Below are positions 6,295 to 37,593 of a stretch of 37,599 bases of DNA, in pieces (position 1 is the first letter of the stretch; every line of letters begins with the position of its first letter). The notes under the pieces were generated by a model. The model saw only the letters and a list, made by a program, of their open reading frames with translations. It did no database searches and was not told the DNA's origin. Origin of the DNA: Dehalococcoides mccartyi (lineage in GTDB: Bacteria; Chloroflexota; Dehalococcoidia; GIF9; DYGU01); NCBI GenBank assembly GCA_020724525.1, contig DYGU01000014.1, forward strand, positions 1-37,599. Direction: 5' to 3'. The translations under genes and the position numbers were made by a program.

Positions 6295-8265
6295 ATGTCT
6301 CAGTGTCATCAAGTTGAGACTAAGATTTCCGGGAAGAAAAGGATACTCCTTTTAGGCAATCCTAATGTGGGGAAAAGTGTCATCTTTTACCACCTTACCG
6401 GGAGATACGCTACAGTATCTAATTATCCTGGAACTACGGTAGCCGTAGCTTCAGGCAGGGCTAATTTTGATGAGGGAAGCACCATTATTGACTCTCCGGG
6501 TGTGAATAACCTTATTCCTCGCTCTGAGGATGAGAAAGTAGCCCGAGACCTCCTCCTTGAACATACGAAAACCGTGTTAATTCAGGTAGCTGATGCTAAA
6601 AACCTCAAGCGGGCTTTGTTACTTTCTGCCCAGTTAGCTGAAGCTGAGGTGCCTTTTCTTTTAGCCCTGAACATGGCTGATGAAGCCGAGAAAAAGGGCA
6701 TAATGATAAATGAGAAAGAATTGTCTCGAGCTTTAGGGGTACCGGTGGTGCTTACAGTAGCTACCCAGGGACAAGGCATAAACCAGCTTAAAGAAAAAGT
6801 CAAAGAAGCCCGCCCGGGCTCGTTTCAGGTTAGACATGATGATGTTCTGGAAGAAGCTATAAGTAGCATTGAACGCCTTCTGCCATCTTTACCTATTGCC
6901 CGCCGCAGTCTGGCAATAATGCTCCTTAGCGGCGACCCCGAATTGGAAAAATGGTTGTCTCAGTACTTAAGTGCTGAACTGCTTAAAACCATTAGAAAAA
7001 AATCCGTTGACCTCCGGTCTCGTTATGCTAAGTCCATAGCGTATATAGTTAACCGAAGAAGAATGCAAGAAATAGAAAAAATAGTAGCCCAGGTGGCTAT
7101 GGTTAAAAAGGGTGGGGGGAGTCCGATAGCTGAGCTCATAGGGGAATTAAGTGTTCATCCGGTGGTGGGGATACCCATTCTGCTCCTTGTCCTTTATTTC
7201 TTTTATTTGGTGGTGGGTGTCTTTGGTGCTGGCACCGTCGTTGAGTTTGTGGAAGGAGTCCTTTTCGGCGAATATATTAATCCAGCAGCTACCTGGCTTT
7301 TTAGCCTTGCACCAACAGCTTTGCTAAAAGATTTGATGGTGGGTGAATACGGACTGATTACCATAGGAGTGACTTATGCGGTAGCTATTATCCTGCCGGT
7401 GGTTGGTTTTTTCTTCATCTGTTTCAGTCTCCTCGAGGATATTGGCTATCTACCTCGCCTAGCAGTAATGGCAAATGCCCTCCTCAGGCATATTGGTCTT
7501 AGTGGCAAGGCTGTCTTACCTTTAATTTTAGGGCTGGGCTGCGACACCATGGCGACCCTGACCACGAGAACATTGGAATCAAAGAGAGAGCGTCTCCTAG
7601 TAACTTTGCTCCTCGCTTTAGCCATTCCGTGTTCAGCTCAGATGGCAGTTATTCTGGCATTGATGGCTGGTATTTCAGGAAAGGCGACTATTCTTTTCTT
7701 CAGCCTTATTCTTATCAACTTGCTTATTGTAGGATACCTGGCTTCTAAGGTCATTCCTGGTCAGAGGTCTGATTTTGTCCTGGAGATGCCACCCATTCGC
7801 TTGCCTCAGCCTTCTAATGTAATGATAAAGACCCTGTCAAGGATGGAGTGGTATTTTAAAGAAGCGGTTCCCCTCTTTCTCCTAGGTACCCTCATTCTTT
7901 TTATACTGGATAAGATTGGCTTCCTTCTTTCACTGGAAAGAGCTGGTGCCCCTTTAGTCCAGCAATGGTTAGGATTACCGGCAGCCGCTACAGGGGCTTT
8001 TATTATGGGCTTCTTGCGCCGAGACTATGGTGCTGCCGGATTCTTTAGGCTTAATGAACTTGGGTTACTGGATGTGAACCAGATTATCATAAGCTTAGTA
8101 GTAATTACCCTTTTTGTCCCCTGTATTGCCCAGTTCTTTATAATGATTAAGGAAAGGGGACTAAAGATAACACTGGCTATCGTAGCCTTTATTTTCCCCT
8201 ATTCCTTTTTTGTAGGGGGTGTGCTTAATTTCATCCTAAGGACACTGGGAGTAACATGGCAATGA
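6295..8265 (+). CDS. feoB: Ferrous iron transport protein B
   Basis: The 656-residue inner-membrane Fe2+ transporter has an N-terminal G domain with G1 GNPNVGKS (about residues 21-28), G3 DSPG (about 66-69) and G4 NMAD (about 126-129), a helical spacer, and then the membrane part with two Gate-type blocks from about residue 270. The G1 to G4 order and the motif LPLILGLGCDTMA are typical. It has a good AAGGAG ribosome site. It is followed by a tiny zinc-ribbon gene overlapping its last 10 bases and by a DtxR-FeoA fusion, so FeoA function appears to be supplied by that fusion. Regulation by the upstream Fur protein is likely. Confidence 0.95.
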   Translation: MSQCHQVETKISGKKRILLLGNPNVGKSVIFYHLTGRYATVSNYPGTTVAVASGRANFDEGSTIIDSPGVNNLIPRSEDEKVARDLLLEHTKTVLIQVADAKNLKRALLLSAQLAEAEVPFLLALNMADEAEKKGIMINEKELSRALGVPVVLTVATQGQGINQLKEKVKEARPGSFQVRHDDVLEEAISSIERLLPSLPIARRSLAIMLLSGDPELEKWLSQYLSAELLKTIRKKSVDLRSRYAKSIAYIVNRRRMQEIEKIVAQVAMVKKGGGSPIAELIGELSVHPVVGIPILLLVLYFFYLVVGVFGAGTVVEFVEGVLFGEYINPAATWLFSLAPTALLKDLMVGEYGLITIGVTYAVAIILPVVGFFFICFSLLEDIGYLPRLAVMANALLRHIGLSGKAVLPLILGLGCDTMATLTTRTLESKRERLLVTLLLALAIPCSAQMAVILALMAGISGKATILFFSLILINLLIVGYLASKVIPGQRSDFVLEMPPIRLPQPSNVMIKTLSRMEWYFKEAVPLFLLGTLILFILDKIGFLLSLERAGAPLVQQWLGLPAAATGAFIMGFLRRDYGAAGFFRLNELGLLDVNQIIISLVVITLFVPCIAQFFIMIKERGLKITLAIVAFIFPYSFFVGGVLNFILRTLGVTWQ

Positions 8266-8462: not shown

Positions 8463-9168
8463 AGAAATTTTAGAAGCTTTGTGGACTGATGCTGGGATAG
8501 AAGAAGAAAAGGAAAGGCTTTCCTTAACCCCTCCTCATCAAGAGGAGTCGCTATTCCAACAACCGGGCATGGAAGAGGCCCTGAAAGTAGCTGAAGAGAG
8601 GGGTTTAGTTACCATCCGGGGGGGAATGCTGTCGCTTACCGAAGCCGGGAAGGCTCAAGCCCGGGACATAGTACGAAGACATCGTCTTGCGGAACGACTA
8701 TTCTATGATGTTTTTGATGTGGGGAGTGAGGAGGCTGAATCTTCAGCTTGTAAATTTGAACATTTGCTCACTGCCGAGGCGACTGACAGTATCTGTATCT
8801 TGTTGGGGCATCCTTCTACTTGTCCCCATGGAAACCCAATACCAAAAGGAGACTGCTGTCTTAGTGAGTTGGAGGAAATACTGCCTGTGGTTATTCCAGC
8901 GAGTCAGCTCCGTATTGGGGAAGAAGCTGCGGTTGCCTACTTGGGAAGCCGGGTTAAAGACAGACTTGACCGGATAGCGAGTTTGGGTATTTTCCCGGGC
9001 ACCAGGTTGACTTTACTTCAGCGACATCCCGCTTGCATTATCCGTTGTGGTGAAACGGAGTTGGCTCTTGACGAAACCATTCTCAGGGATATACGAGTAA
9101 GACGTTCTACCCCGGAACTATTTCCTCAAAAAACAAGACACCGGCATCGCCGGCGAAGACGGTGGTAG
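8443..9168 (+). CDS. DtxR/MntR-type metalloregulator fused to FeoA domain
   Basis: The 241-residue protein is read from ATG 8443, which follows GAGGAGG, rather than from an upstream ATG in the same frame that would run far into the zinc-ribbon gene. The first about 75 residues are an N-terminal winged helix with some divergence. A DtxR dimerisation/metal segment follows (RRHRLAERLFYDVF, then CKFEHLLT, CPHGNPIPKGDCC at about 150-162). The last about 75 residues are a FeoA/SH3-like domain (GSRVKDRLDRIASLGIFPGTRLTLLQ). It likely senses Fe2+ or Mn2+ and represses its target genes. As the last gene of the Feo cluster it could both regulate and supply FeoA-like contacts to FeoB. Confidence 0.85.
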   Translation: MLEREIEEILEALWTDAGIEEEKERLSLTPPHQEESLFQQPGMEEALKVAEERGLVTIRGGMLSLTEAGKAQARDIVRRHRLAERLFYDVFDVGSEEAESSACKFEHLLTAEATDSICILLGHPSTCPHGNPIPKGDCCLSELEEILPVVIPASQLRIGEEAAVAYLGSRVKDRLDRIASLGIFPGTRLTLLQRHPACIIRCGETELALDETILRDIRVRRSTPELFPQKTRHRHRRRRRW

Positions 9169-9246
9169 TAACTTTAACCTGGTGGAGGGAGTTGTTTCCC
9201 TTGCTTTAGCGTAGTAAGATAAAAGGCAAAAAGCGGGCAAACTAAT

Positions 9247-9918
9247 TTGAGACCCCGTCTCATCGCCATTGACGGTCCGGTTGCAGTAGGTAAAAGCACT
9301 ATTGGTCAGTTATTAGCCGAGAAGCTTGGTTATTCCTTTATCGATACTGGCACTATGTACCGGGCTTTGACCTGGAAAGCCCTTAGATTGGGTATTGACC
9401 TTGAGGATGAAGATAAACTTCCCCAATTAGCTACGACTACCAGGATTGAGTTCGTCTTAGAGGATGTTTATGATAAAGCTTACCGGGTCTTTGTTGATGG
9501 CGAAGATATCACCGGGGAGGTGCGTTCGGCAGAGGTGGAGAGAAATGTATCTTTAGTATCAAAGGTAGCGGGGGTGAGGCGGGTGATGGTAAGAAAGCAG
9601 CGACTGATGGCAGGAAAGGGAAAGATAGTAATGGCGGGAAGAGACATTGGTACGGTGGTTTTACCTGAAGCTGAACTAAAAATATTTCTGACTGCCTCTC
9701 CTGAAGAAAGAGCTCGTCGGCGTTATCTGGAGTTATTGAACCAGGGTAATAAGGCAGACTATAGTGTCATTCTAACTGATTTAAAAAAACGAGATGAAAT
9801 AGATAGTCAACGGATGGTGTCACCTTTACAACCAGCAGGTGATGCTAAAATCATTGATACGGAAGGTCTGACTCTGGAGCAAGTTGTCCAGAAGATATGG
9901 GCTTTTGTAGAGGAGTAA
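9247..9918 (+). CDS. cmk: Cytidylate kinase
   Basis: The 223-residue enzyme converts (d)CMP and ATP to (d)CDP. It starts at TTG 9247 with RPRLIAIDGPVAVGKSTIG, containing the P-loop GPVAVGKS (about residues 9-16), then FIDTGTMYRALTWKAL, GRDIGTVVLPEAELKIFLTA and the Lid ERARRRYLELL. Full length for the family. The ribosome site before TTG is weak, but no better in-frame start exists before the P-loop. It is followed by plsC after one base and then ispH in an overlapping tandem; cmk-plsC-lytB is a common arrangement in Gram-positives and Chloroflexi. Confidence 0.93.
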   Translation: MRPRLIAIDGPVAVGKSTIGQLLAEKLGYSFIDTGTMYRALTWKALRLGIDLEDEDKLPQLATTTRIEFVLEDVYDKAYRVFVDGEDITGEVRSAEVERNVSLVSKVAGVRRVMVRKQRLMAGKGKIVMAGRDIGTVVLPEAELKIFLTASPEERARRRYLELLNQGNKADYSVILTDLKKRDEIDSQRMVSPLQPAGDAKIIDTEGLTLEQVVQKIWAFVEE

Positions 9919-27361: not shown

Positions 27362-29500
27362 CTATGTCAGCGTTGATTTCCCTATCGTCTCCAATGCCTC
27401 ACTGAAATGCCGGGCATTAATCTTGAATTTGGTAAAGTCCTTCTCCTCTTGATTTATAAACTCCCTTATCGCCAGCATAGAGGCCCTCCTCGAGATAGCC
27501 TCTATATCTGAGCCAACCAGACCTTCTGTTGCCTCAGCCAGAGACTCAAGGTTGACATCGTCAGCCAGGGGCTTGCCTCTGACGTGGACTTTGAATATCT
27601 CAAGCCTCGTTTTCTTATCAGGAATAGGCAGTTCAAGCTGGAGGTCAAATCTGCCGGCTCTAAGTAGGGCAGGGTCGATAATATCTGGTCTATTGGTAGC
27701 GGCGAGAACCACCACCCCCTTGAGCTCTTCTATCCCATCCAGTTCAGTTAGAAACTGGCTGATGACTCGCTCAGTAACATGGGAATCGGCACTTGCCCCT
27801 CGGACAGGGGCAATGGCATCTATTTCGTCAAAAAAGATAATACAGGGGCTGGCTTGTTTTGCTTTCTTAAAGACCTCTCTAATGCCCCTTTCAGACTCGC
27901 CGACCCATTTGGAAAGAAGAGCTGGACCTTTGACTGAGATGAAGTTCACCTCACTCTGGCTGGCTACTGCCTTCGCCAGAAGAGTCTTGCCCGTGCCAGG
28001 GGGACCGGTGAGCAGAATGCCCTTGGCAGGTTTGGTATTGGCATGTTCAAACAGTTCTGGATACTTAAGTGGCCACTCAATAGTCTCCATAAGCACCCTT
28101 TTAGCTTCCTCAAGCCCGCCGACATCGCTCCACTTAACATCGGGGATCTCGGTGAAAACCTCCCTTATAGCTGAAGGCTCCACCTCCTTTAAAGCTTCCA
28201 GGAAATCATTCATGGTGACTTCTAATTGTAAAAGCAGCTCATAAGGAATATAGTCGGCTTTAAACTCAATCTTGGGCATGATTTTTCTTAAGGTCACCAT
28301 CGCCGCCTCTCGGCAGAGCGCTTCAAGGTCTGCTCCAACAAACCCATGGGTAATGTCGGCAATTCTTTCCAGGTCTACATCAGAAGATAAGGGCATGCCT
28401 CTGGTATGGATGTGAAGTATCTCCAGCCTTCCATTTCTGTCGGGGATCCTTATGGAGATCTCGCGGTCAAATCTCCCCGGCCTCCTCAAAGCCGGATCGA
28501 GGACATTGGGTATATTAGTGGCACCGATAACAATTACCTGTCCTCTTGATTTCAAGCCGTCCATTAAAGCCAGGAGTTGAGCGACAACCCTTCGTTCTAC
28601 CTGCTGATCACCTCTGACTTCCTCTCTCTTGGAAGCTATAGCGTCAATTTCGTCCATAAAGACTATAGCCGGGGCCTGTTCATTTGCTCTTTCAAAGATA
28701 GCCCTTAAATGTGCTTCGCTCTCACCGTAAAATTTATGGATAACCTCCGGACCAGTTATATGGAAAAAGTTGGCATCGGTTTCATTAGCCACGGCTCTGG
28801 CTATCAAGGTTTTCCCACACCCCGGTGGACCGTGCAAGAGCACGCCTTTTGGGGCCTCTATCCCCAGCCGCTCAAAGACTTCAGGATACTTCAGAGGGAG
28901 CTCGATCATCTCCCTTATCCTTTGAATCTCCTTATGTAGCCCCCCAATATCTTCGTAGGTAACCCCGGTTCTTTCTTTTTCTCCAACCCTCTCCCCTTTT
29001 ATCTTTATGTTGGTAATGGGATGGATGATGACCACTCCCCTGGGACTGGTATCAACTATAGAGAATTCCTGATACCGGGTGCCAAATAGAGTAGCTCTTA
29101 CTTTATCTCCGGGAGTCACCGCCAATCCCTCGAGTAACCTCCCAATATATCTGGTATCCCTTTCCTTTAGGGCTGCTTGAGCAGTTATAGGAGCCAAGAT
29201 TACTGTGTTGGCAGCCTTATAGTCCACTTTCTGGGTCTGTGCCTTTTCGCCCAGACCTATCTGGGCATTTTCACGGGTAATACCATCTATCTGGATAATT
29301 TCTTTGCCCCGGTCCTCGGCGTAAGCTGGCATAACTTTAGCTACCGTGGCTCTTTTGCCTGTAATCTGGACGATGTCCCCCACCATGGCTCCAATCTTCG
29401 CCATATCTTTAGGGTCGATCCTGGCTATTCCCCTGCCGACATCCTTGGCCAGCGCCTCTGATACCCTTAGGGTCAAAGTTTTGGTCTCCGTTTGTGCCAT
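27362..29500 (-). CDS. CDC48/VAT-type double AAA ATPase
   Basis: The 712-residue protein has the CDC48 N-domain (double-psi barrel, about residues 5-175), D1 with Walker A GPPGCGKT (224-231) and Walker B VFMDEIDA (280-287), and D2 with GPPGTGKT (499-506) and IFFDEIDA (555-562). The arginine-finger region [13 protein letters not shown] is present in D1. It should be a hexameric unfoldase/segregase. The C-terminus (GKSTLT) lacks the HbYX motif used to dock on 20S proteasomes. It starts 3 bp after the HTH-GvpH stop and is probably co-transcribed from 30245-30273. Uncommon in bacteria outside some anaerobes; close association with gvp-like genes suggests it remodels the vesicle-type proteins. Confidence 0.95.
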
Positions 29501-29503
29501 TTT

Positions 29504-30223
29504 TTACTTCTTTTTCATGAGCTTTATCTCGAGGATTCCATTCCTGTAGGAGGATTCCATAGTATTGATGTCGACCGGGTAGGGCAGTAGGACCTCTTTG
29601 CTGTATTTTCTATCCTTTGCCTCGGCCATTAGCTCCAGGATATCCTCCTTTGCCTCCAGATGAATATCATCCTCTTCGACACCAGGAAGTTCGGCAATTA
29701 CTACCAGCTGATCACCTTCATCGAGCACATCGACTAACGGTTCACGGACCTCAGCCACCACTGTGCCCTCCTCCGTTGCCCGAATGTTGCCGAACTGCTC
29801 GATAACCGGCTTTCCTCCCAGTCCCATCTTTATGCTGAAACCATATACCCCTTTAAGCTTGTCGCCTAAACCTTTAATCTCACCGGTTCGGGTATATTCC
29901 TCTTTCCTCTCCTCAGTCATTTTGGAGATGAGGTCAAAGAGACTACCAATCCCTTTAAATAACCCGCCAAGACTGAACTCAACTGGCTCTCCAGGCCTCT
30001 TTCGTCTTTCACTCATCGGAACACCTCCTTTTTTTCGTTGAGCTTTACTTACTTGGTTCTGTAGTTCCTCCAGCTTAAGGCTAATAATGGGCAAAGGCTT
30101 GGTGAGGCCGGCTTCCCAGCGCCTCACCGTCTGAAGCGAGACGCCGAGGAGCCGGGCAAACCTCTCCTGTGATAGCCCAAACTCAAGCCGGAGGTTCTTG
30201 ATATCCTTGTCCTCCATAGACAT
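29504..30223 (-). CDS. gvpH: HTH-GvpH (Hsp20) fusion with internal GvpH start
   Basis: The 239-residue frame starts with a Cro/CI-type helix-turn-helix (LRLEFGLSQERFARLLGVSL, about residues 11-45), a linker, and from Met70 (base 30016) a complete GvpH-like protein: SLGGLFKGIGSLFDLI, GVYGFSIKMGLGG, EPLVDVLDEGDQLVVIAELP and a C-terminal NGILEIKLMKKK alpha-crystallin fold. AAGGAGGT stands 6 bases before Met70, so a second, free 170-residue GvpH can be made. Seven consecutive As just before it could allow slippage that ends the HTH frame shortly after. The HTH may regulate the consensus promoter at 30245-30273. Confidence 0.9.
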   Translation of the reverse strand: MSMEDKDIKNLRLEFGLSQERFARLLGVSLQTVRRWEAGLTKPLPIISLKLEELQNQVSKAQRKKGGVPMSERRKRPGEPVEFSLGGLFKGIGSLFDLISKMTEERKEEYTRTGEIKGLGDKLKGVYGFSIKMGLGGKPVIEQFGNIRATEEGTVVAEVREPLVDVLDEGDQLVVIAELPGVEEDDIHLEAKEDILELMAEAKDRKYSKEVLLPYPVDINTMESSYRNGILEIKLMKKK

Positions 30224-30244
30224 TTATCCCCCAACCTTTTCCTT

Positions 30245-30273
30245 ATTATAACACATGTTTAGTCATATGTCAA
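30245..30273 (-). promoter_or_regulatory. Consensus promoter of the HTH-GvpH/CDC48 unit
   Basis: On the minus strand TTGACA (30273-30268), a 17-bp spacer and TATAAT (30250-30245) match both consensus hexamers. The spacer and flanks contain two similar words, ACATATG and ACATGTG, about 12 bp apart, a candidate operator for the HTH protein whose ATG is at 30223. It divides the minus-strand cluster into at least two transcription units. Confidence 0.85.
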
Positions 30274-30289
30274 TACTTTTTGAGCGCGA

Positions 30290-30397
30290 GAGTGCTTATT
30301 TTGTCACTCTCACCTACCCTCTCCCTTGAAGGGAGAGGGTAGGTGAGAGTTTCTCTGCTTTGTTTAGGATTGTGGATAAGCATTGGTAAACAACCTC
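30290..30397 (-). repeat. MITE-like repeat, family 1 copy E (full hairpin)
   Basis: The best-preserved copy. From GAGTGCTTATTTTGTCA to GGTAAACAACCTC, with a perfect 21-bp stem CTCTCACCTACCCTCTCCCTT facing its reverse complement across one base. It is inverted relative to copies A and B. It sits between the GRAM-Hsp20 gene and the promoter at 30245-30273, so it may terminate the upstream unit or have carried in that promoter. The remaining 30398-30514 holds no further feature that I can recognise. Confidence 0.9.
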
Positions 30398-30514
30398 TTG
30401 AGCGGAAATTTTGGATTGTCAGGGGCTGTGCTTGTGACGAGGAGGGGCGGCTACTTTAGCGAGCGAAAATAGGGCTGTGTTTATTAGCCGGCAACTAACA
30501 ATGGGATAATCTCC

Positions 30515-31468
30515 TCAGAGTAGGTCACTGGGAAGCTTCTCCAGCCTAATTACTAAAACGTGGTTGCTATAGGATCTCGTGCATCTGTTAGGATTGACTT
30601 CAGCGGGAAGGGCAACTTCTTCGCAATAGCTCTTGTCCGGGCGGTTAACAGAGATGGTAAGCATATCCTTCGTTACGTTGATGCTGATATCCTCCTCGGC
30701 TACACCCACAATTTCGGTAACGACCTGTATATGGTCCCCCTCATCGAAGATATCCAGGAGTGGCTCTTTCTCCTTTTGCCTAACCTCCGCAGGGACAACC
30801 AGCCACCAGCTGAACAAAACCTTCTTGCCCGTGTCGGGGTCGAGCTTTGACCTCTCAAATAACAGGAGGGGATTACCAGTTATCTTTTTGGCAACAGGGT
30901 TTATAGTGTCCCTTATTTTAAGGAGAACGTGCATGTGATTGGGAGCTGATACTAAATCGGCGAGTTTGCTGATGGTGGCATAGCGATTTTCCCAAAGATA
31001 AGTCACAATCTCCCTGCTAACAGAGTCGAGCTCTTCCATCACCCTATTCAGGGATTCTTCGCTGACTCTGAGCGATGCCCTCTCAAAAAGCTCTTTTCTC
31101 CAGAGTTCCAAGTCAGGCATGATAATCCAGGCTTTTGATTGTCTTTGAGTTATTGGGCTCTGGTATTTCATAGCAATAGTGTCCTTTATCTTGCCAGCAA
31201 TATATTTTTGTTGTTCCACCCTAATCTCCCTTACGTTACTCAGAGGCGTTTCAAATATGATCCTTGAGGGAACGAAAAAGAGTAGCCTGTGGTTGGTAAG
31301 ATAGAAACGGCCAAGCTTCCAGATTGAACGCATATTATCTTTATAGCCACCTTGCGAGTGGAGGATAACTTGCTCATCACTGGCTAAGCCTGGGTCGATG
31401 GCTCGTCTAATTCCCCCTGACAGCTCTCTGGTGCCCTCATACCTGCTTTTGATACTCCCCAGTCCCAT
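30515..31468 (-). CDS. GRAM-winged helix-Hsp20 fusion protein
   Basis: This 317-residue protein joins three parts. Residues about 30-130 are a GRAM/PH-like domain (WKLGRFYLTNHRLLFF, IIFETPLSNVREIRVE). Residues about 150-225 look like a winged helix (SREIVTYLWENRYATISKLA). Residues 235-312 are an Hsp20/GvpH-type alpha-crystallin domain (PLLDIFDEGDHIQVVTEIVG, LPAEVNPNRC, NHVLVIRLEK). The first part matches the GRAM domains of the GvpA-type fusion at 33419, so the two likely contact the same lipid or partner. No signal peptide. I know no characterised protein with this domain order. It lies 53 bp downstream of dnaK. Confidence 0.78.
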   Translation of the reverse strand: MGLGSIKSRYEGTRELSGGIRRAIDPGLASDEQVILHSQGGYKDNMRSIWKLGRFYLTNHRLLFFVPSRIIFETPLSNVREIRVEQQKYIAGKIKDTIAMKYQSPITQRQSKAWIIMPDLELWRKELFERASLRVSEESLNRVMEELDSVSREIVTYLWENRYATISKLADLVSAPNHMHVLLKIRDTINPVAKKITGNPLLLFERSKLDPDTGKKVLFSWWLVVPAEVRQKEKEPLLDIFDEGDHIQVVTEIVGVAEEDISINVTKDMLTISVNRPDKSYCEEVALPAEVNPNRCTRSYSNHVLVIRLEKLPSDLL

Positions 31469-31521
31469 ACTCTTTTCCCTTAAATAAAGGACATTTCTTA
31501 TCCGGTATTTCCTAAATCTGA

Positions 31522-33386
31522 TTAAGCCGACCTATCCTGAGTCCTATCCAACCCCTTCGCCATCTCTCGTTTCTTATCTTTTGTTTCGCGGTAAAGGGCT
31601 TTGACTGCCTTTTCCAGTCCTTCCGTCGTCGCTTTGATCTGCTGGCTATTTCCATTAGCCAGAGCAGTTTGTACCCCCAGTATTTTTATCTCGACATCGT
31701 CGACTAAGAATGAATCCACATTTAAGTCGACTTCTTCAATAGTCTGCCGGGCAGCCCGAACCATATTATCGGCCTTGATTCCTATCTCGACCTCTTCCCG
31801 CGATTTCTTGTCCGACTCGGCATACTTTTGGGCTTCCTCGAGCATACGGCTGATTTCCTCTCTGGACAGCCCATAAAAACGGGGGCTAATCCTCAGTTTC
31901 TGCAAGTTGTCTGTATACAAGTCCCGAGCCGATACACGGAGAATACCGTCGGCGTTGATATCGAAGGTTACCTCAACTCGAGCTTCCCCACGAGGTAGGG
32001 GAGGGATACCGGTCAATTCAAATTTATCCAAAGTCATATTATACATAGCCATTTCTCGCTCACCCTGCAAGACATGGATATCCATGGAAGTTTGATTATC
32101 GGTGGCATTGGTGAAGATCTGACCCTGCGAGACAGGGATTGTGGTATTGCGCCCGATGATCTTGGTGAATATCCCGCCCTGGGTCTCAACGCCGAGAGAT
32201 AGGGGAGTAACATCTATTAATATATTAATACCTTTCCCTCTATTTCCCCGGTTAGAATGCCGGCTTGGATAGCTGCCCCCATAGCCACCACTTCATCAGG
32301 GTGGATATCCTTATAAGTCTCCTTGCCCATAAGTTGCTGGACAAGCTCCCTTACCGCGGGCATTCTGGTGGCTCCACCCACCAGGATCACCCGGTCAATA
32401 TCCTCAGGTTCCAGTCCGGCATCAGCCAGCGCCTGTTTAGTGGGGCCGACCATCTTCTGAAGTAGATCTTCAGTCAGCTCTATAAACTTTGCCCTGGTTA
32501 GAGTTGTTTCCCAGTGCTCAGGGGTCTCCCCACCGGCATCGATAAAGGATATCCTGATACGGGTAATCTCTCGATCCGTTAGTTCGAGCTTAGCCTTCTC
32601 AGCGACCTCCTTGAGCTGTTGTAAAGCTATCTTGTTTTCTCGCAGGTCGATGCCATATTCTTGCTGGAACTTGTCAGCCAGGTGGTCCACTACCCTTTGG
32701 TCATAATCATCTCCGCCAAGCCAGGTATTGCCATTTACTGCTTTAACTTCAAAGACCCCCTCCCCAAGCTCCAGAATAGAAACATCAAAGGTGCCGCCAC
32801 CGAGGTCCCAGACCAGGATAGTGTGGATGTCCTCCAGGTCAAGTCCGTAAGCAAGGGCGGCAGCGGTAGGTTCATCAACGATTCGCATCACTTCCAGACC
32901 GGCAATGGTACCAGCATCTATAGTAGCCTGACGCTGGCTTATGTTGAAATAGGCAGGGACGCTGATCACTACTTTCTCAATTTTCTCGCCGAGGTAATTT
33001 TCAGCGTCTGTTTTGACCTTTTGCAAAATCATGGCTGATATTTCCTCAGGGGTGTATTCTCTGTCTTCAAACCTAACCCAATAATCGGAGCCCATGCGCC
33101 TTTTGATTTGCCGGATAACCTCCCGGTCATTGCTGAGATTATCAAGGTCAAGGTAAGCTCTCCGCCCCATACGTCTTTTTATGGAGAACACAGTTCCATC
33201 CGGGTTGGCGATAGCTTGGAGTTTAGCCAGTTGCCCTACCAGTCGCTTTCCGTCTTTTAGGAAAGCGACGACTGATGGTGTGAGCCGACCGCCTTCGGCG
33301 TTAGGTATGATTATCGGTCGGCCCCTTTCCAGATAAGCGACCACTGAAAAAGTAGTCCCAAGGTCAATACCCACTACCTTTGACAT
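31522..33386 (-). pseudogene. dnaK: DnaK (Hsp70) chaperone with one-base frameshift
   Basis: ATG 33386, preceded by GGAGGGG, starts [20 protein letters not shown]. The ATPase domain is complete ([50 protein letters not shown]). At about 32220-32230 one A is missing (GTATTAATATATTAATAGATG); adding it restores [18 protein letters not shown], and the substrate-binding part continues to 31522 with GEREMA and LPRGEARVEVTFDINADGIL. About 621 residues, a little shorter than housekeeping DnaK. The loss is in an A/T run and may be a sequencing error, in which case this is a working operon-dedicated Hsp70. An in-frame upstream start (33488) is rejected. Confidence 0.88.
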
Positions 33387-33418
33387 TGAATTTCGCCCCT
33401 CCACCAAACTCCCCGTTA

Positions 33419-34504
33419 TCAGCCTGAGATTGCCGCCTGGCGTATTTCCTTTTTCAGCCTCGGGCTTACCCAGCCACACCTGGCGCACCCCTTCTCCAGA
33501 AGCTCCCTAACCGGGGCCTCTTGACCACACTGAGGGCAGGTGTCTATCTCCTTAGTTGAAGCAATGCCTGGCTGTGAGGCGACTCGATTAAGTGTCTTTT
33601 CCCATTGCCATAATTCATCCCCAGAAAAGGAAGCTACCTGTTTCCCAAAGTCATTTTGATATATGACGTCAAGGACATTCCTTTGGGTGAGCACAGTACT
33701 GAGGTTTCTCCGTTCCACGGTGGAGGCGACAATCTTGTCTAAGGGCACTTCAAAGACCACTTTTTGTTCAAAATCATACCACCACAATAATCTTTTGTTG
33801 GTGATGTAAAGGTGGCCAGGCTGCCAACTTTCGCCTAAGATTCCGCGGGTTTTCATTAAATGCCACATTTTCCCTCGGCAAGTGATCTCCTCGCCATCGG
33901 TGAGGAAACTGGCTGCCCTTTTGTCCTGTCTTAGAAGAATCGGCATTTCCTGCCAGGCAATTCCCAACTTAGACATTTCTTTTTCCACAGCTTGTCTCAG
34001 TTCATGAATGTCTACAGCGTGCAGCCGGGCAATATTACCCCCCTTGAGCAAGAGACAGAGGTTTTCTCGCTCTTCTCTCTCTATTGCCAATCCTTTTATC
34101 TTTTTCAAAGGTGTCTCAAAGAGCACTTCTTCAAAGCTTGGGTGATATAGAATTAGTCTTTTGTCGGTCAAATAGATACGTCCCAGCCTCCAGGCGGTGT
34201 ATATCCCTTGGCTATAGTGATAAGAGCCAAACATCTCGAGGATGATTTCCTCCCCCAAGGTGGCTGAAAGCTGTTTCTGCTTTCTGTGTTCTTGCTCCCA
34301 GGCGCGGGTGCGCTCGTCCCATTCCGTCATCACGCCATACCTTAGCATGGTCTCCATTCCGGCCAAGGCGGCTCTCAGGTTAACCCCGATCAAGGGGATG
34401 CCAGCAACGGAAATAATGATATCTGCGTAAAGGACTAAACCTTTGTCCAGCACCCTGTCCAGCAGGTCAACCAGGGTAGCGTGTGAATTTCGTGTCGGCT
34501 CCAT
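33419..34504 (-). CDS. GvpA/J/M domain fused to two GRAM domains and a zinc ribbon
   Basis: This 361-residue protein begins with a complete gas-vesicle structural-type domain (about residues 9-58: [20 protein letters not shown] and [20 protein letters not shown]), closest in pattern to GvpJ/M minor proteins of the GvpA superfamily. Two GRAM/PH-like domains follow: about 83-175 ([38 protein letters not shown]) and about 202-300 ([34 protein letters not shown]). The end is a zinc ribbon with Cys323/326/340/343 (CPQCG, CARCGW). Gas-vesicle shell proteins are normally about 70-150 residues, so this fusion is unusual. GvpF/L, GvpK and GvpH are encoded just upstream. Confidence 0.82.
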
Positions 34505-34530
34505 TTTCCCTCACTTCGCTCAGTAAATCC

Positions 34531-34953
34531 TAATGACAAATTGAAAAACTGAAACTTATTGATTTATCTTTGTTTTTCCGATAATAGAACTCAGTATTTT
34601 CATTAACTCTTTGCTTTCGTTTAATAACCACTTTAATTCTTCATTATCATCCTGTTTCTTTAATAAATTAGATAAATCAATTACCTTAAGCCAATAATTA
34701 GACTCTCTTGCTTCTTTTCTAGCAATTCTATCTTATTAACAAAATCTTTCTTAGAAACTGCTCCATCTGCCTCTTCCATATTCGCACCTATCGAAGTACC
34801 AGCTCGAAGAAGTTGCTTTCCTATTTCATAGCCAGCAATAGTCTTAGGTAACCTGTCTATAAAACTTACAATCTTAACAGCAAATCTAAGACATCTTTTA
34901 ATGTCATAAATTTTTTCATTCATTGACCATTTGTCATTTTTAATTTGTCATTA
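34531..34953. mobile_element. Inverted-repeat-bounded insert carrying a four-helix-bundle gene
   Basis: Perfect 12-bp inverted repeats TAATGACAAATT (34531-34542) and AATTTGTCATTA (34942-34953) bracket the gene at 34556-34923. The right repeat overlaps the TAA stop of the GvpF/L gene (34951-34953). A second ATTTGTCATT lies at 34929-34938. The insert separates GvpF/L from the GvpA-GRAM gene in an otherwise tight operon. Confidence 0.6.
34556..34923 (-). pseudogene. Four-helix bundle protein (S23/IVP-like), frameshifted
   Basis: ATG 34923 begins MNEKIYDIKRCLRFAVKIVS, then IGKQLLRAGTSIGANMEEAD, the signature of the S23 ribosomal intervening-sequence/four-helix bundle family. Near 34705-34725 the frame slips: the family ending ARKEARESNYWLKVI and a lysine-rich tail lie one frame over, closing at 34556-34558. 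Codon use is markedly more A/T-rich than in its neighbours, suggesting recent arrival. Confidence 0.75.
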
Positions 34954-35766
34954 AGTGAAACTGTATGGCGGCCAGGGACCGGTGAAGCGAACCGAGAATC
35001 CCTCCATTTTATTGATTTCGTCCAGTTCTTCGCCTAACTCCCTGTATTTATCTACATAGACTAAGCAGGATAGGTTCATGAGCATCTGTAAGTCCTGGTC
35101 CGCCTTTTTTGTCTTTTCCACACGAATGTCGTCAACGTGTTTCTTTATCCTGCTGTAAAAGTCCTTAAAGCACTCATCCGCCTTAAATTCCATCTCCTTC
35201 TTCAGGAGGTTCTCCAGCCTTTGCCGGTACATGTAGGCTAATCCCTTCGACTTAGACCTGATTTCCGCCTCTAACCTCTTGATTTCAGGACTGCTTTCGG
35301 TGAGGTGTTGGGCGATGATTTTTGGATCCCAGAAGACCTGGACGCCATATTCTGCCTTATCTCTTACCTTTTCTATTTTCTTCTTAAGGTTCTCATAGTC
35401 CTCTTTTAGCCAGTTAAGCGTATTCTCCTCAGCGCTCCTTGCTTCTGCTCTAATTATGGTATCAAAGCCGAAGGGGAGGACAGTGCCCCACTTCTCCCAG
35501 GCAGTATCAATCACCTTCTGATGCCTCAATACCCATGCCTTCACTACCTCTTGGTCATCTGACTTATATGGTTCGGCGGGGCAACTATGGACCACGGCAC
35601 AAATATCCCTGTAAGCAATAGTGTAGACTTCGCTGTTTTCTATCCCAATTTCCCCGAGGCTTATGCTTTCCTCGGCATCAGCAACACAATAAAGGTAAAT
35701 GCCTTTTTCTTTGGCATTCGTTTCAGCTTCACTCAATTGAATTTCTTCAGTTCCTCCTCCTGCCAT
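34951..35766 (-). CDS. gvpF/L: Gas vesicle protein GvpF/GvpL family
   Basis: The 271-residue protein has the family start KGIYLYCVADAEESISL, then AYRDICAVVHSCPAEPY, HQKVIDTAWEKWGTVLPFGF and the C-terminal hallmark SVRFTGPWPPYSF. GvpF/L proteins are minor vesicle components or assembly factors that bind GvpA. The ATG at 35766 overlaps the gvpK end by 34 bp; a later TTG (about 35737) could instead be used because homology starts only near residue 20. It is complete. Confidence 0.93.
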   Translation of the reverse strand: MAGGGTEEIQLSEAETNAKEKGIYLYCVADAEESISLGEIGIENSEVYTIAYRDICAVVHSCPAEPYKSDDQEVVKAWVLRHQKVIDTAWEKWGTVLPFGFDTIIRAEARSAEENTLNWLKEDYENLKKKIEKVRDKAEYGVQVFWDPKIIAQHLTESSPEIKRLEAEIRSKSKGLAYMYRQRLENLLKKEMEFKADECFKDFYSRIKKHVDDIRVEKTKKADQDLQMLMNLSCLVYVDKYRELGEELDEINKMEGFSVRFTGPWPPYSFT

Positions 35767-36056
35767 CTTTCGGGATTTACCATCCTGTCAAGGACATCGT
35801 CGACTATATCATCCAGACCATCCTTGACCGATTTTACAGATTCACTAATTCCCTGCTCTTTCTTTATTTCTTCGATGGCGAGGTCAAGGTCCATAAGTGC
35901 TTGCCCCAGCCTTTCTATCTTCTCTTCAGTCAAGCTTCCACCCTCCACTCTTCTTATTGCCTGGAGTTTGAGGGCGTCCCTTATTATTTCAACAAGGGCC
36001 ACAACCAGCCCGAGTAGACCATGTTTCAGACTTTTCTCATCAATATCAACCACCAT
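35733..36056 (-). CDS. gvpK: Gas vesicle protein GvpK
   Basis: The 107-residue protein shows the GvpK pattern: HGLLGLVVALVEIIRDALKL (about residues 12-31), QAIRRVEGGSLTEEKIERLG and LGQALMDLDLAIEEIKKEQG. GvpK is a small accessory protein in essentially all gas vesicle clusters. It is 12 bp downstream of the GvpH-like gene and overlaps gvpF/L, so the three are translationally linked. Confidence 0.93.
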   Translation of the reverse strand: MVVDIDEKSLKHGLLGLVVALVEIIRDALKLQAIRRVEGGSLTEEKIERLGQALMDLDLAIEEIKKEQGISESVKSVKDGLDDIVDDVLDRMVNPERWQEEELKKFN

Positions 36057-36068
36057 TTCTCTTTCTCT

Positions 36069-36641
36069 TTAGCTACCGGACTTCTTGCGCAGTCGAATTT
36101 CTAAGATACCATTGTGGCAAGTTGCCCTTAAACTCTCCTTGTCTACTTCAGTGCGTAGCTTGATCACCTTTCCATAGTTCCGTTGAGCGGTAGGTTTTGT
36201 TAATAACTGAAGGACATCGCCTTCGATTTTCAGCTTCAGGTCTTCCATGTCCACACCAGGAACCTCAGCTACGATTATGATTTCTCCCGCCTCGTCGAAA
36301 ATATCAACAGGCGGTTTGACGGCCTCAGGAGGTTTGGGAATTCTTTCTACCCTTTTCTGTGGTCTTGGTCGTGAAACTGTTCCAATATGGTATTCAGCAT
36401 CACCCAGAATGCCACGAGTGTGAAAGTGCCCGCCGATACTTATACCCCCCCTCCGCCACTCCTCATCACTCAAAACTTCCTTCCCGCCGGCTTGTTTTAG
36501 CTTCTCCCTCAGTTCCTCAAGCCGATCTTTTACATCCTCAGGTGAGGAAAGAAGCTTGGCCAGGTCTATCTTGAGGCCGAAGATATTCAGTGTCCCCCCA
36601 AGCACATCGGAGATATCAAACTCTTTGTCTTCTTTTTTCAT
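36069..36641 (-). CDS. Hsp20/GvpH-like protein
   Basis: The 190-residue protein has a leucine-rich helical N-terminus (SDVLGGTLNIFGLKIDLAKL), a linker with GGISIGGHFHTRG, and an Hsp20 domain from about residue 110 (PVDIFDEAGEIIIVAEVPGV, VLQLLTKPTA, CHNGILEIRLRKKSG). The VDIFDE..E..VVAEVPGV block is shared with GvpH at 29504 and the Hsp20 part at 30515, making three alpha-crystallin proteins in one cluster. GvpH-type proteins stabilise or limit vesicle formation in haloarchaea; here the client is unknown. Confidence 0.85.
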   Translation of the reverse strand: MKKEDKEFDISDVLGGTLNIFGLKIDLAKLLSSPEDVKDRLEELREKLKQAGGKEVLSDEEWRRGGISIGGHFHTRGILGDAEYHIGTVSRPRPQKRVERIPKPPEAVKPPVDIFDEAGEIIIVAEVPGVDMEDLKLKIEGDVLQLLTKPTAQRNYGKVIKLRTEVDKESLRATCHNGILEIRLRKKSGS

Positions 36642-36665
36642 CGGGCTCTCCTTGACTTATTACAC

Positions 36666-37067
36666 TCATGCCTCTTTTTTGGAGATCACGCCTGCGCCCT
36701 TACAGCGTAAACAGTGGAGATAAATTCCATTAATGCGCTTGGTGCCTGTGCCGAAGCAAGCCGGGCATGTCTCCGTTGGCTCTCCTACGGTTATCACCCC
36801 TGTGCCGTAGCAGGCAAGACAGGTCAGCCTGGTGAAAGGCTGGACCCCTGTCTGGTCACAGGCACGGCAGGGGACATAAGGCTCTATTACCCGGACTTTA
36901 CCTTTACCGCCACAGACGCAGCAATTAGAAAGGTGAGACATGATTCCGAAAGGGTCTTTGCCGGTGCCCTCACAAAAGGCACATTTCACCTCCGCCCGCT
37001 TTACCTCGACCTCAATCTTTGGCATTACCCGCCGTGGTCGCAGTTTTGCTCTTACTTTTTGTGTCAT
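36666..37067 (-). CDS. DnaJ-type zinc-finger protein without J domain (copy 2)
   Basis: The 133-residue protein consists almost wholly of CxxCxGxG-type knuckles (CAFCEGTG, CCVCGGKG, CRACDQTG, CLACYGTG, CPACFGTG, CLRCKGAG). They form a DnaJ-like cysteine-rich module, but no HPD J domain is present. ATG 37067 follows AAGGAGGT. Its paralogue precedes it at 37167. Likely a client-binding or disulfide/zinc chaperone partner for the DnaK encoded downstream; this is inference. Confidence 0.87.
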   Translation of the reverse strand: MTQKVRAKLRPRRVMPKIEVEVKRAEVKCAFCEGTGKDPFGIMSHLSNCCVCGGKGKVRVIEPYVPCRACDQTGVQPFTRLTCLACYGTGVITVGEPTETCPACFGTGTKRINGIYLHCLRCKGAGVISKKEA

Positions 37068-37166
37068 CTTTTACCTCCTTGGAAATTGTTTTGTTAGTTC
37101 AGTAACAATTTCCATTTTTGTCCTCGGAAGAGGGTATAGTAAAATTGCCCATCTGGCAAATAGCTA

Positions 37167-37538
37167 TCAGGCACGCACCACACCTTTGCCCGAGCAGATA
37201 GCGCAGGGAAGCCCGAACTCATCCGTCAGAGTTCTACCTGAACCCTGACAGGCAGGACAGGTCTTTGTCTCACCAGGCACGCTGACTACGCCCTTCCCGG
37301 AGCAAACAGAGCAGGTAAGGCGACGGGGGAAGCCGCGGCGATCACGATGGATGCCTTCGCTGCTACAGTAACCACACTGGACATAGGGCTCCCTGACCCG
37401 AATGGTTCCCCTTCCACCACAGGCAGGACACTTGCCGAAGCCGATTACGGGATCGGCACCTGTCCCCTCGCAGAGGCCACACTCAAGTACTGCATACCCC
37501 TCTTCCTTTCTTAGCACCTTTATCTCTCTCTGTTCCAT
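37167..37538 (-). CDS. DnaJ-type zinc-finger protein without J domain (copy 1)
   Basis: The 123-residue protein read from ATG 37538 (after GGGAGGG) has the knuckles CGLCEGTG, CPACGGRG, CGYCSSEG, CSVCSGKG, CPACQGSG and CAICSGKG. A longer in-frame start at 37583 lies inside the inverted repeat and is not used. It is paralogous to 36666-37067, but the two are distinct in sequence. First gene of the minus-strand cluster in the window; its leader is the right arm of the 47-bp inverted repeat. The 99 bp between the two genes shows no further feature. Confidence 0.87.
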   Translation of the reverse strand: MEQREIKVLRKEEGYAVLECGLCEGTGADPVIGFGKCPACGGRGTIRVREPYVQCGYCSSEGIHRDRRGFPRRLTCSVCSGKGVVSVPGETKTCPACQGSGRTLTDEFGLPCAICSGKGVVRA

Positions 37539-37546
37539 TTTGCCAC

Positions 37547-37593
37547 CCTCCCATGAGCGCACAGTTTTGTCAAGCCTGCGCACCCTTTTTATT
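37547..37593 (-). repeat. Right arm of 47-bp perfect inverted repeat (gene leader)
   Basis: Reverse complement of bases 1-47. On the minus strand it gives TTGACA (37573-37568) and ends at the ribosome site of the DnaJ-type gene at 37538. Identity stops exactly after GGGAGG, so the two inward-facing genes share a leader but not a coding sequence. Confidence 0.9.

Follow-up and report, generated by a model that had tools for sequence, protein, structure and literature searches.

Gas-vesicle seeding has been described as the least understood step of vesicle formation, and in Bacillus megaterium GvpJ and GvpS have been proposed to seed vesicles and to occupy their tips (PMC11445434). The cluster of Desulfobacterium vacuolatum yields gas vesicles when expressed in E. 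coli (PMC10344784). In haloarchaea, residues 60-84 of GvpM contact GvpF, the Hsp20-like GvpH and GvpL, and vesicles still form when these residues are deleted; the same 2021 paper states that GvpM is specific to haloarchaea (PMC8716928). The GvpM of Halobacterium salinarum (84 aa) stops about 17 residues past the Gvp core, carries neither PH domains nor a zinc ribbon, and is encoded in the gene order gvpJ-gvpK-gvpL-gvpM.

Here we describe a Gvp protein of a different build, encoded in a 37,599-nucleotide stretch of Dehalococcoides mccartyi DNA that we refer to as the window. The gene (Table 1) is a single intact open reading frame with an ATG start and the sequence AGGGA, a plausible ribosome-binding site, 5 nt upstream. 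In its 361-aa product a Gvp domain is followed by two domains of PH fold and by a C4 zinc ribbon. A first-pass annotation made from the letters alone had named these same parts, and all of them were recovered by our analysis: PF00741 matches over its full length at the N-terminus (residues 10-48, model positions 1-39 of 39; 58.6 bits in hmmscan, cut-off 25), both later segments are PH folds by AlphaFold2 and structure comparison, and the four ribbon cysteines are present in a segment homologous to the GvpJ ribbon. Looking for the three-part order in other genomes, as had been suggested with that annotation, returned the identical domain order in several unrelated records. Because the order recurs in this way and selection on the tail is purifying, an assembly chimera or frameshift fusion was ruled out. 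A phage or viral origin was also rejected, one scan of viral contigs having given 157 pattern matches and zero relatives. The architecture had been called undescribed, and we likewise found no description of a gas-vesicle protein with a PH domain or zinc ribbon in the open-licence PMC literature, where one paper mentions gas vesicles and pleckstrin, each a single time. Homologues in public databases stand as single entries under generic or wrong names.

Table 1. Coordinates of the gvpM gene, its domains and neighboring genes in the window
Feature	Coordinates	Strand	Basis or remarks
gvpM-PH-PH-ZnR gene	33419..34504	-	361 aa; ORF, hmmscan, GvpM score, AlphaFold2, structure comparison
GvpM domain, residues 1-67	34304..34504	-	alpha1-beta1-beta2-alpha2 Gvp core; PF00741, NCBIfam GvpM, tree
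PH1, residues about 81-182	33959..34264	-	AlphaFold2 PH fold; match to GRK2 PH (Z 14.1); monophyletic across phyla (98/96)
PH2, residues about 197-312	33569..33916	-	Vps36 PH (25.6 bits); SKAP-Hom PH (Z 13.2), Vps36 GLUE (Z 12.5)
C4 zinc ribbon, Cys323/326/340/343	33476..33538	-	Sequence; match to GvpJ zinc ribbon of own genome
PH-wHTH-Hsp20 gene	30515..31468	-	HSP20 22.7 bits; related PH at residues about 27-118
dnaK/Hsp70, first part (frameshifted)	32217..33488	-	PF00012 512 bits
dnaK/Hsp70, second part	31522..32085	-	Continues in another frame across 32085-32217
gvpL (GvpL/F)	34951..35766	-	PF06386 229 bits; NCBIfam GvpL above cut-off
gvpK	35733..36056	-	PF05121 72.9 bits
Hsp20 (GvpH/I-like position)	36069..36641	-	PF00011 33.8 bits
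HTH-Hsp20 (GvpH-like)	29504..30223	-	HTH_3 43 bits, HSP20, GvpH 24.3 bits (cut-off 22)
Cdc48/VCP-like AAA ATPase	27362..29500	-	Conserved in relatives' clusters

The first-pass annotation had treated the Gvp core as that of the assembly unit, GvpA, while domain scores and trees place it with GvpM, an accessory or seeding protein. Among the NCBIfam models, GvpM scores the core at 97 bits over all 67 positions, compared with 50 for GvpJ and 40 for GvpA; the 97 bits do not reach the GvpM cut-off of 109, which belongs to a model restricted to haloarchaea (‘halo’, kind ‘exception’). The core is 45% identical to H. salinarum GvpM over 82 residues. In trees of 64-68 alignment columns, all bacterial sequences of GvpM type form a clade with Halobacterium GvpM apart from GvpJ (100/100), and this clade is also set apart from the GvpA, GvpJ and GvpS-like rows (99/100), the GvpS-like rows having been picked by sequence as stand-ins for B. 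megaterium GvpS. The gene order is K-L-M in the window and J-(Zn)-K-L-M in relatives, as against J-K-L-M in Halobacterium, with a small gene resembling a 23S rRNA intervening-sequence protein between gvpL and gvpM in the window. Given the best score to GvpM, the supported clade and the same K-L-M order, we assign the Gvp domain by sequence to GvpM, a minor seeding or tip protein, and not to the GvpA shell unit. The family scores and trees thus rule out GvpA, and the name GvpJ, under which the Streptomyces homologue is annotated, was rejected since GvpJ is a separate adjoining gene with its own zinc ribbon. The published view of GvpM as haloarchaea-specific (PMC8716928) is contradicted by these orthologues, found in several bacterial phyla and in the same gene slot. 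Among other Gvp proteins of Chloroflexota, GvpS-like proteins of 193-209 aa (records L036, L038 and L033) have C-terminal halves that resemble GvpK and are possible GvpS-GvpK fusions.

In the slot between gvpL and dnaK, GvpM occurs in three lengths. The short form (80-117 aa), which has no tail and a core up to 87% identical to that of the target, is the usual one in Chloroflexota, judged from 13 sampled genomes, and is also present in Nitrospinae. One-PH forms have 187-246 aa, with or without a zinc ribbon, and two-PH forms range from 303 to 372 aa. The tailed architecture is not confined to the D. mccartyi genome. Within Chloroflexota, it is carried by the window and by three further genomes of its class or order. 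In Desulfobacterota, 10 of the 11 GvpM-bearing genomes have a tailed protein (291 genomes were sampled from the class to which a Desulfobacteraceae record belongs), and tailed forms with degenerate PH domains are present in Synergistota/Atribacterota records. For Actinomycetota, covered through a plasmid collection, a tailed GvpM of 303 aa (WP_137962300.1, annotated ‘GvpJ’) is encoded on a plasmid from Streptomyces sp. SGAir0924, a cultured organism. This protein shares the GvpM core and two PH-like segments with the target (36% identity over residues 1-261), yet it lacks the zinc ribbon and its gene order is J-M-K-L. In a tree of the PH domains, PH1 (98/96), PH2 (100/99) and the PH of an Hsp20 protein of the same operon (94/82) form separate clades. 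Since PH1 is monophyletic, a single GvpM-PH1 fusion accounts for every tailed form observed; label counts on the core tree require several gains or losses of the tail.

In Chloroflexota and Desulfobacterota alike, gas-vesicle clusters (window 27362-37583; L084-L095) share a chaperone set in conserved order, made up of DnaK, several Hsp20s, a Cdc48-like AAA ATPase, an ArsA/Get3-like ATPase and DnaJ-type zinc-finger proteins. In relatives, the genes follow the consensus order gvpN - gvpL/F - Hsp20 - Cdc48 - gvpL/F - gvpL/F - gvpJ(ZnR) - gvpK - gvpL/F - gvpM - dnaK - PH-wHTH-Hsp20 - arsA. The PH-wHTH-Hsp20 protein, two genes from gvpM in this conserved operon, has a PH domain related to those of GvpM-PH joined to an alpha-crystallin domain, and unlike GvpM-PH it has no Gvp core. 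The GvpM-PH profile was sufficient to find its PH domain genome-wide (E 6e-9), and hhalign gives a probability of 96%; an AlphaFold2 model of the whole protein (pLDDT 51, 2-row alignment) was set aside. Stand-alone PH genes are present in some relatives as well, and one of them (L093) lies directly between gvpL and gvpM. Overall, 12 of the 17 tailed and 1 of the 12 short GvpM proteins come with a PH domain encoded in the gas-vesicle locus outside gvpM (Fisher p 0.0018), a value inflated by relatedness, as the co-occurrence is phylogenetically clustered and a test on independent pairs, of which there are too few, falls short of significance. A second PH protein was not found in five of the tailed cases.

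Several further features of these loci were observed. The 23S rRNA-intervening-sequence-type gene of the window (34681-34923, by Pfam), predicted to encode a four-helix bundle, flanks gvpM, and similar four-helix-bundle genes, judged from sequence, flank gvpM at 7552-7980 and 9072-9500 in the unrelated cluster L012. The HTH-Hsp20 gene is preceded by a sigma-70 promoter that fits the consensus perfectly (12/12, extended -10) at 30245-30273 on the minus strand, and a hairpin with a 20-bp stem adjoins it at 30307-30349. Broken reading frames affect dnaK (frameshift, 32085-32217), several of the window's metabolic genes and copies of gvpN; elsewhere in the genome, gvpA (C25:10965) is frameshifted after 46 aa and gvpJ (C25:26129) has a TAG within its zinc ribbon, which together suggest either decay or an assembly prone to indels. 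Both ends of the window carry a 47-nt perfect inverted repeat with TTGACA (1-47 and 37547-37593). Its 28-nt core is present 16 times genome-wide, for the most part at the ends of contigs, against 0 matches for the reversed control, and the repeat is a multicopy element where the assembly breaks.

In sequence profiles the matches of the PH domains are weak, though real. Only PH2 passes a curated cut-off in hmmscan, with the Vps36 PH model (residues 227-267, cut-off 24.1), and PH1 falls just under those of bPH_3 (22.9 bits, cut-off 23) and GRAM (20.9, cut-off 23.6) near residues 82-143. When solved structures were searched by sequence, GvpA shells alone were returned, and a PH profile gave nothing significant. 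In an AlphaFold2 model built from an 8-row alignment (mean pLDDT 64), confidence in the Gvp core is low (pLDDT about 40), and the PH fold of seven strands plus a C-terminal helix appears twice, with core pLDDT mostly 75-90. Foldseek ranks BBS5, a protein with tandem PH domains, as the top match of the model (E 4e-9). By VIA-align, model residues 77-183 match the PH domain of GRK2, and residues 196-312 match that of SKAP-Hom and the GLUE domain of Vps36/EAP45 (Z scores in Table 1). Like the tail, BBS5, the Vps36 GLUE domain and archaeal CheF contain tandem or single PH folds of GRAM/Vps36 type; they act in eukaryotic trafficking or archaeal chemotaxis and, unlike GvpM-PH, have no link to Gvp proteins. 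The zinc ribbon, CPQC-x13-CARC, is a predicted metal site that independently matches the ribbon of the GvpJ from the same genome (47%, E 1e-5). Ribbon-bearing GvpJ proteins (119-153 aa) share with the target both the Gvp core and a ribbon of the same CPxC...CxxCGW pattern, but they form a clade separate from GvpM (100/100) and are without PH domains. The dN/dS of the ribbon ranges from 0.28 to 1.03 over very few sites.

In cryo-EM structures, GvpA shells have their C-terminal side on the outside. From this orientation, the contacts made by haloarchaeal GvpM residues 60-84, and the proposed role of Bacillus GvpJ and GvpS in seeding and at tips, we infer an outward docking arm. With about even confidence, we propose that the tail serves as a cytosolic arm bringing chaperones to the vesicle during nucleation. 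By analogy with haloarchaeal GvpM and Bacillus GvpJ/S, the Gvp core of GvpM-PH would insert into the nascent shell at the seed or tip; its C-terminal side, if oriented as in GvpA, would face the cytosol, so that the PH-PH-ZnR arm would hang outside and could keep proteins that aid assembly close to the site of nucleation, most probably PH-Hsp20, DnaK and GvpL. The bacterial tail starts at the place that matches haloarchaeal residues 60-84, and as those residues are dispensable, this fusion point should tolerate change. The sister PH domain on a cytosolic Hsp20 of the same operon points to protein-protein docking, and the arm would dock chaperones rather than lipid. Many clusters carry and work with a tail-less GvpM, therefore the arm is not essential to gas-vesicle assembly in general.

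In close pairs, PH1 has a dN/dS of 0.23-0.48 (0.31 in one nearly identical pair) compared with 0.04-0.13 for the Gvp core, so the tail is under purifying selection while evolving faster than the core, and it has disappeared repeatedly, in one case through an explicit internal deletion that left a short form retaining the end of the tailed one (L078). These observations would suit a solubility or spacer module without a specific ligand that prevents the hydrophobic GvpM from aggregating or growing prematurely, a role we consider unlikely given that single ancient PH1 and PH2 lineages have been retained across phyla, that the zinc ribbon matches that of GvpJ and that the partner chaperone bears a related PH domain.

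The first-pass annotation had read the tail as lipid-binding and the protein as a membrane adaptor; on this view the PH domains would bind anionic lipid and anchor the vesicle seed or tip at the cytoplasmic membrane. PH and GRAM folds do include lipid binders, and the structural matches of the model include the phosphoinositide-binding PH domains of TAPP1 and BTK; across homologues, however, the net charge runs from -6 to +4 in PH1 and from -3 to +5 in PH2 (pI 5-9.7) and is not consistently basic. Charge, pI and conservation across homologues revealed no conserved basic cluster in PH1, where nearly all residues conserved among tailed proteins belong to the generic PH core motif (G-I-Y..W-R.G....T..R-L). 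To our knowledge, phosphoinositides, the canonical PH ligands, are absent or rare in most bacteria. With charges that are near neutral and variable, and with related PH domains sitting on a soluble cytosolic chaperone, membrane reading is less likely than a docking arm, and we regard it as improbable. A regulatory tail, in which ribbon and PH domains sense the cytosolic state (redox, zinc or a metabolite) and gate nucleation, can draw on the winged-helix-like segment of PH-Hsp20 and the HTH-Hsp20 gene alongside, but is very doubtful, as several tailed homologues (L012, L075-L077) have no zinc ribbon and ligand-like conservation is absent.

GvpM itself is a known protein, and what is new is its form with the adaptor domains PH-PH-ZnR. 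A GvpM that carries its own interaction domains makes the seeding question testable, since the arm could be expressed alone as bait for partners. It also offers gas-vesicle engineering a natural fusion point on a seed or tip protein, where large C-terminal domains are evidently tolerated. Beyond the docking arm, we tentatively suggest that the PH modules on GvpM at the seed, on Hsp20 and on stand-alone proteins might constitute an adaptor network, coupling nucleation to a local chaperone relay of Hsp20, DnaK, the ArsA/Get3-like ATPase and Cdc48. If true, such a PH adaptor network would represent a way of building organelles that has not been described for the protein organelles of prokaryotes.
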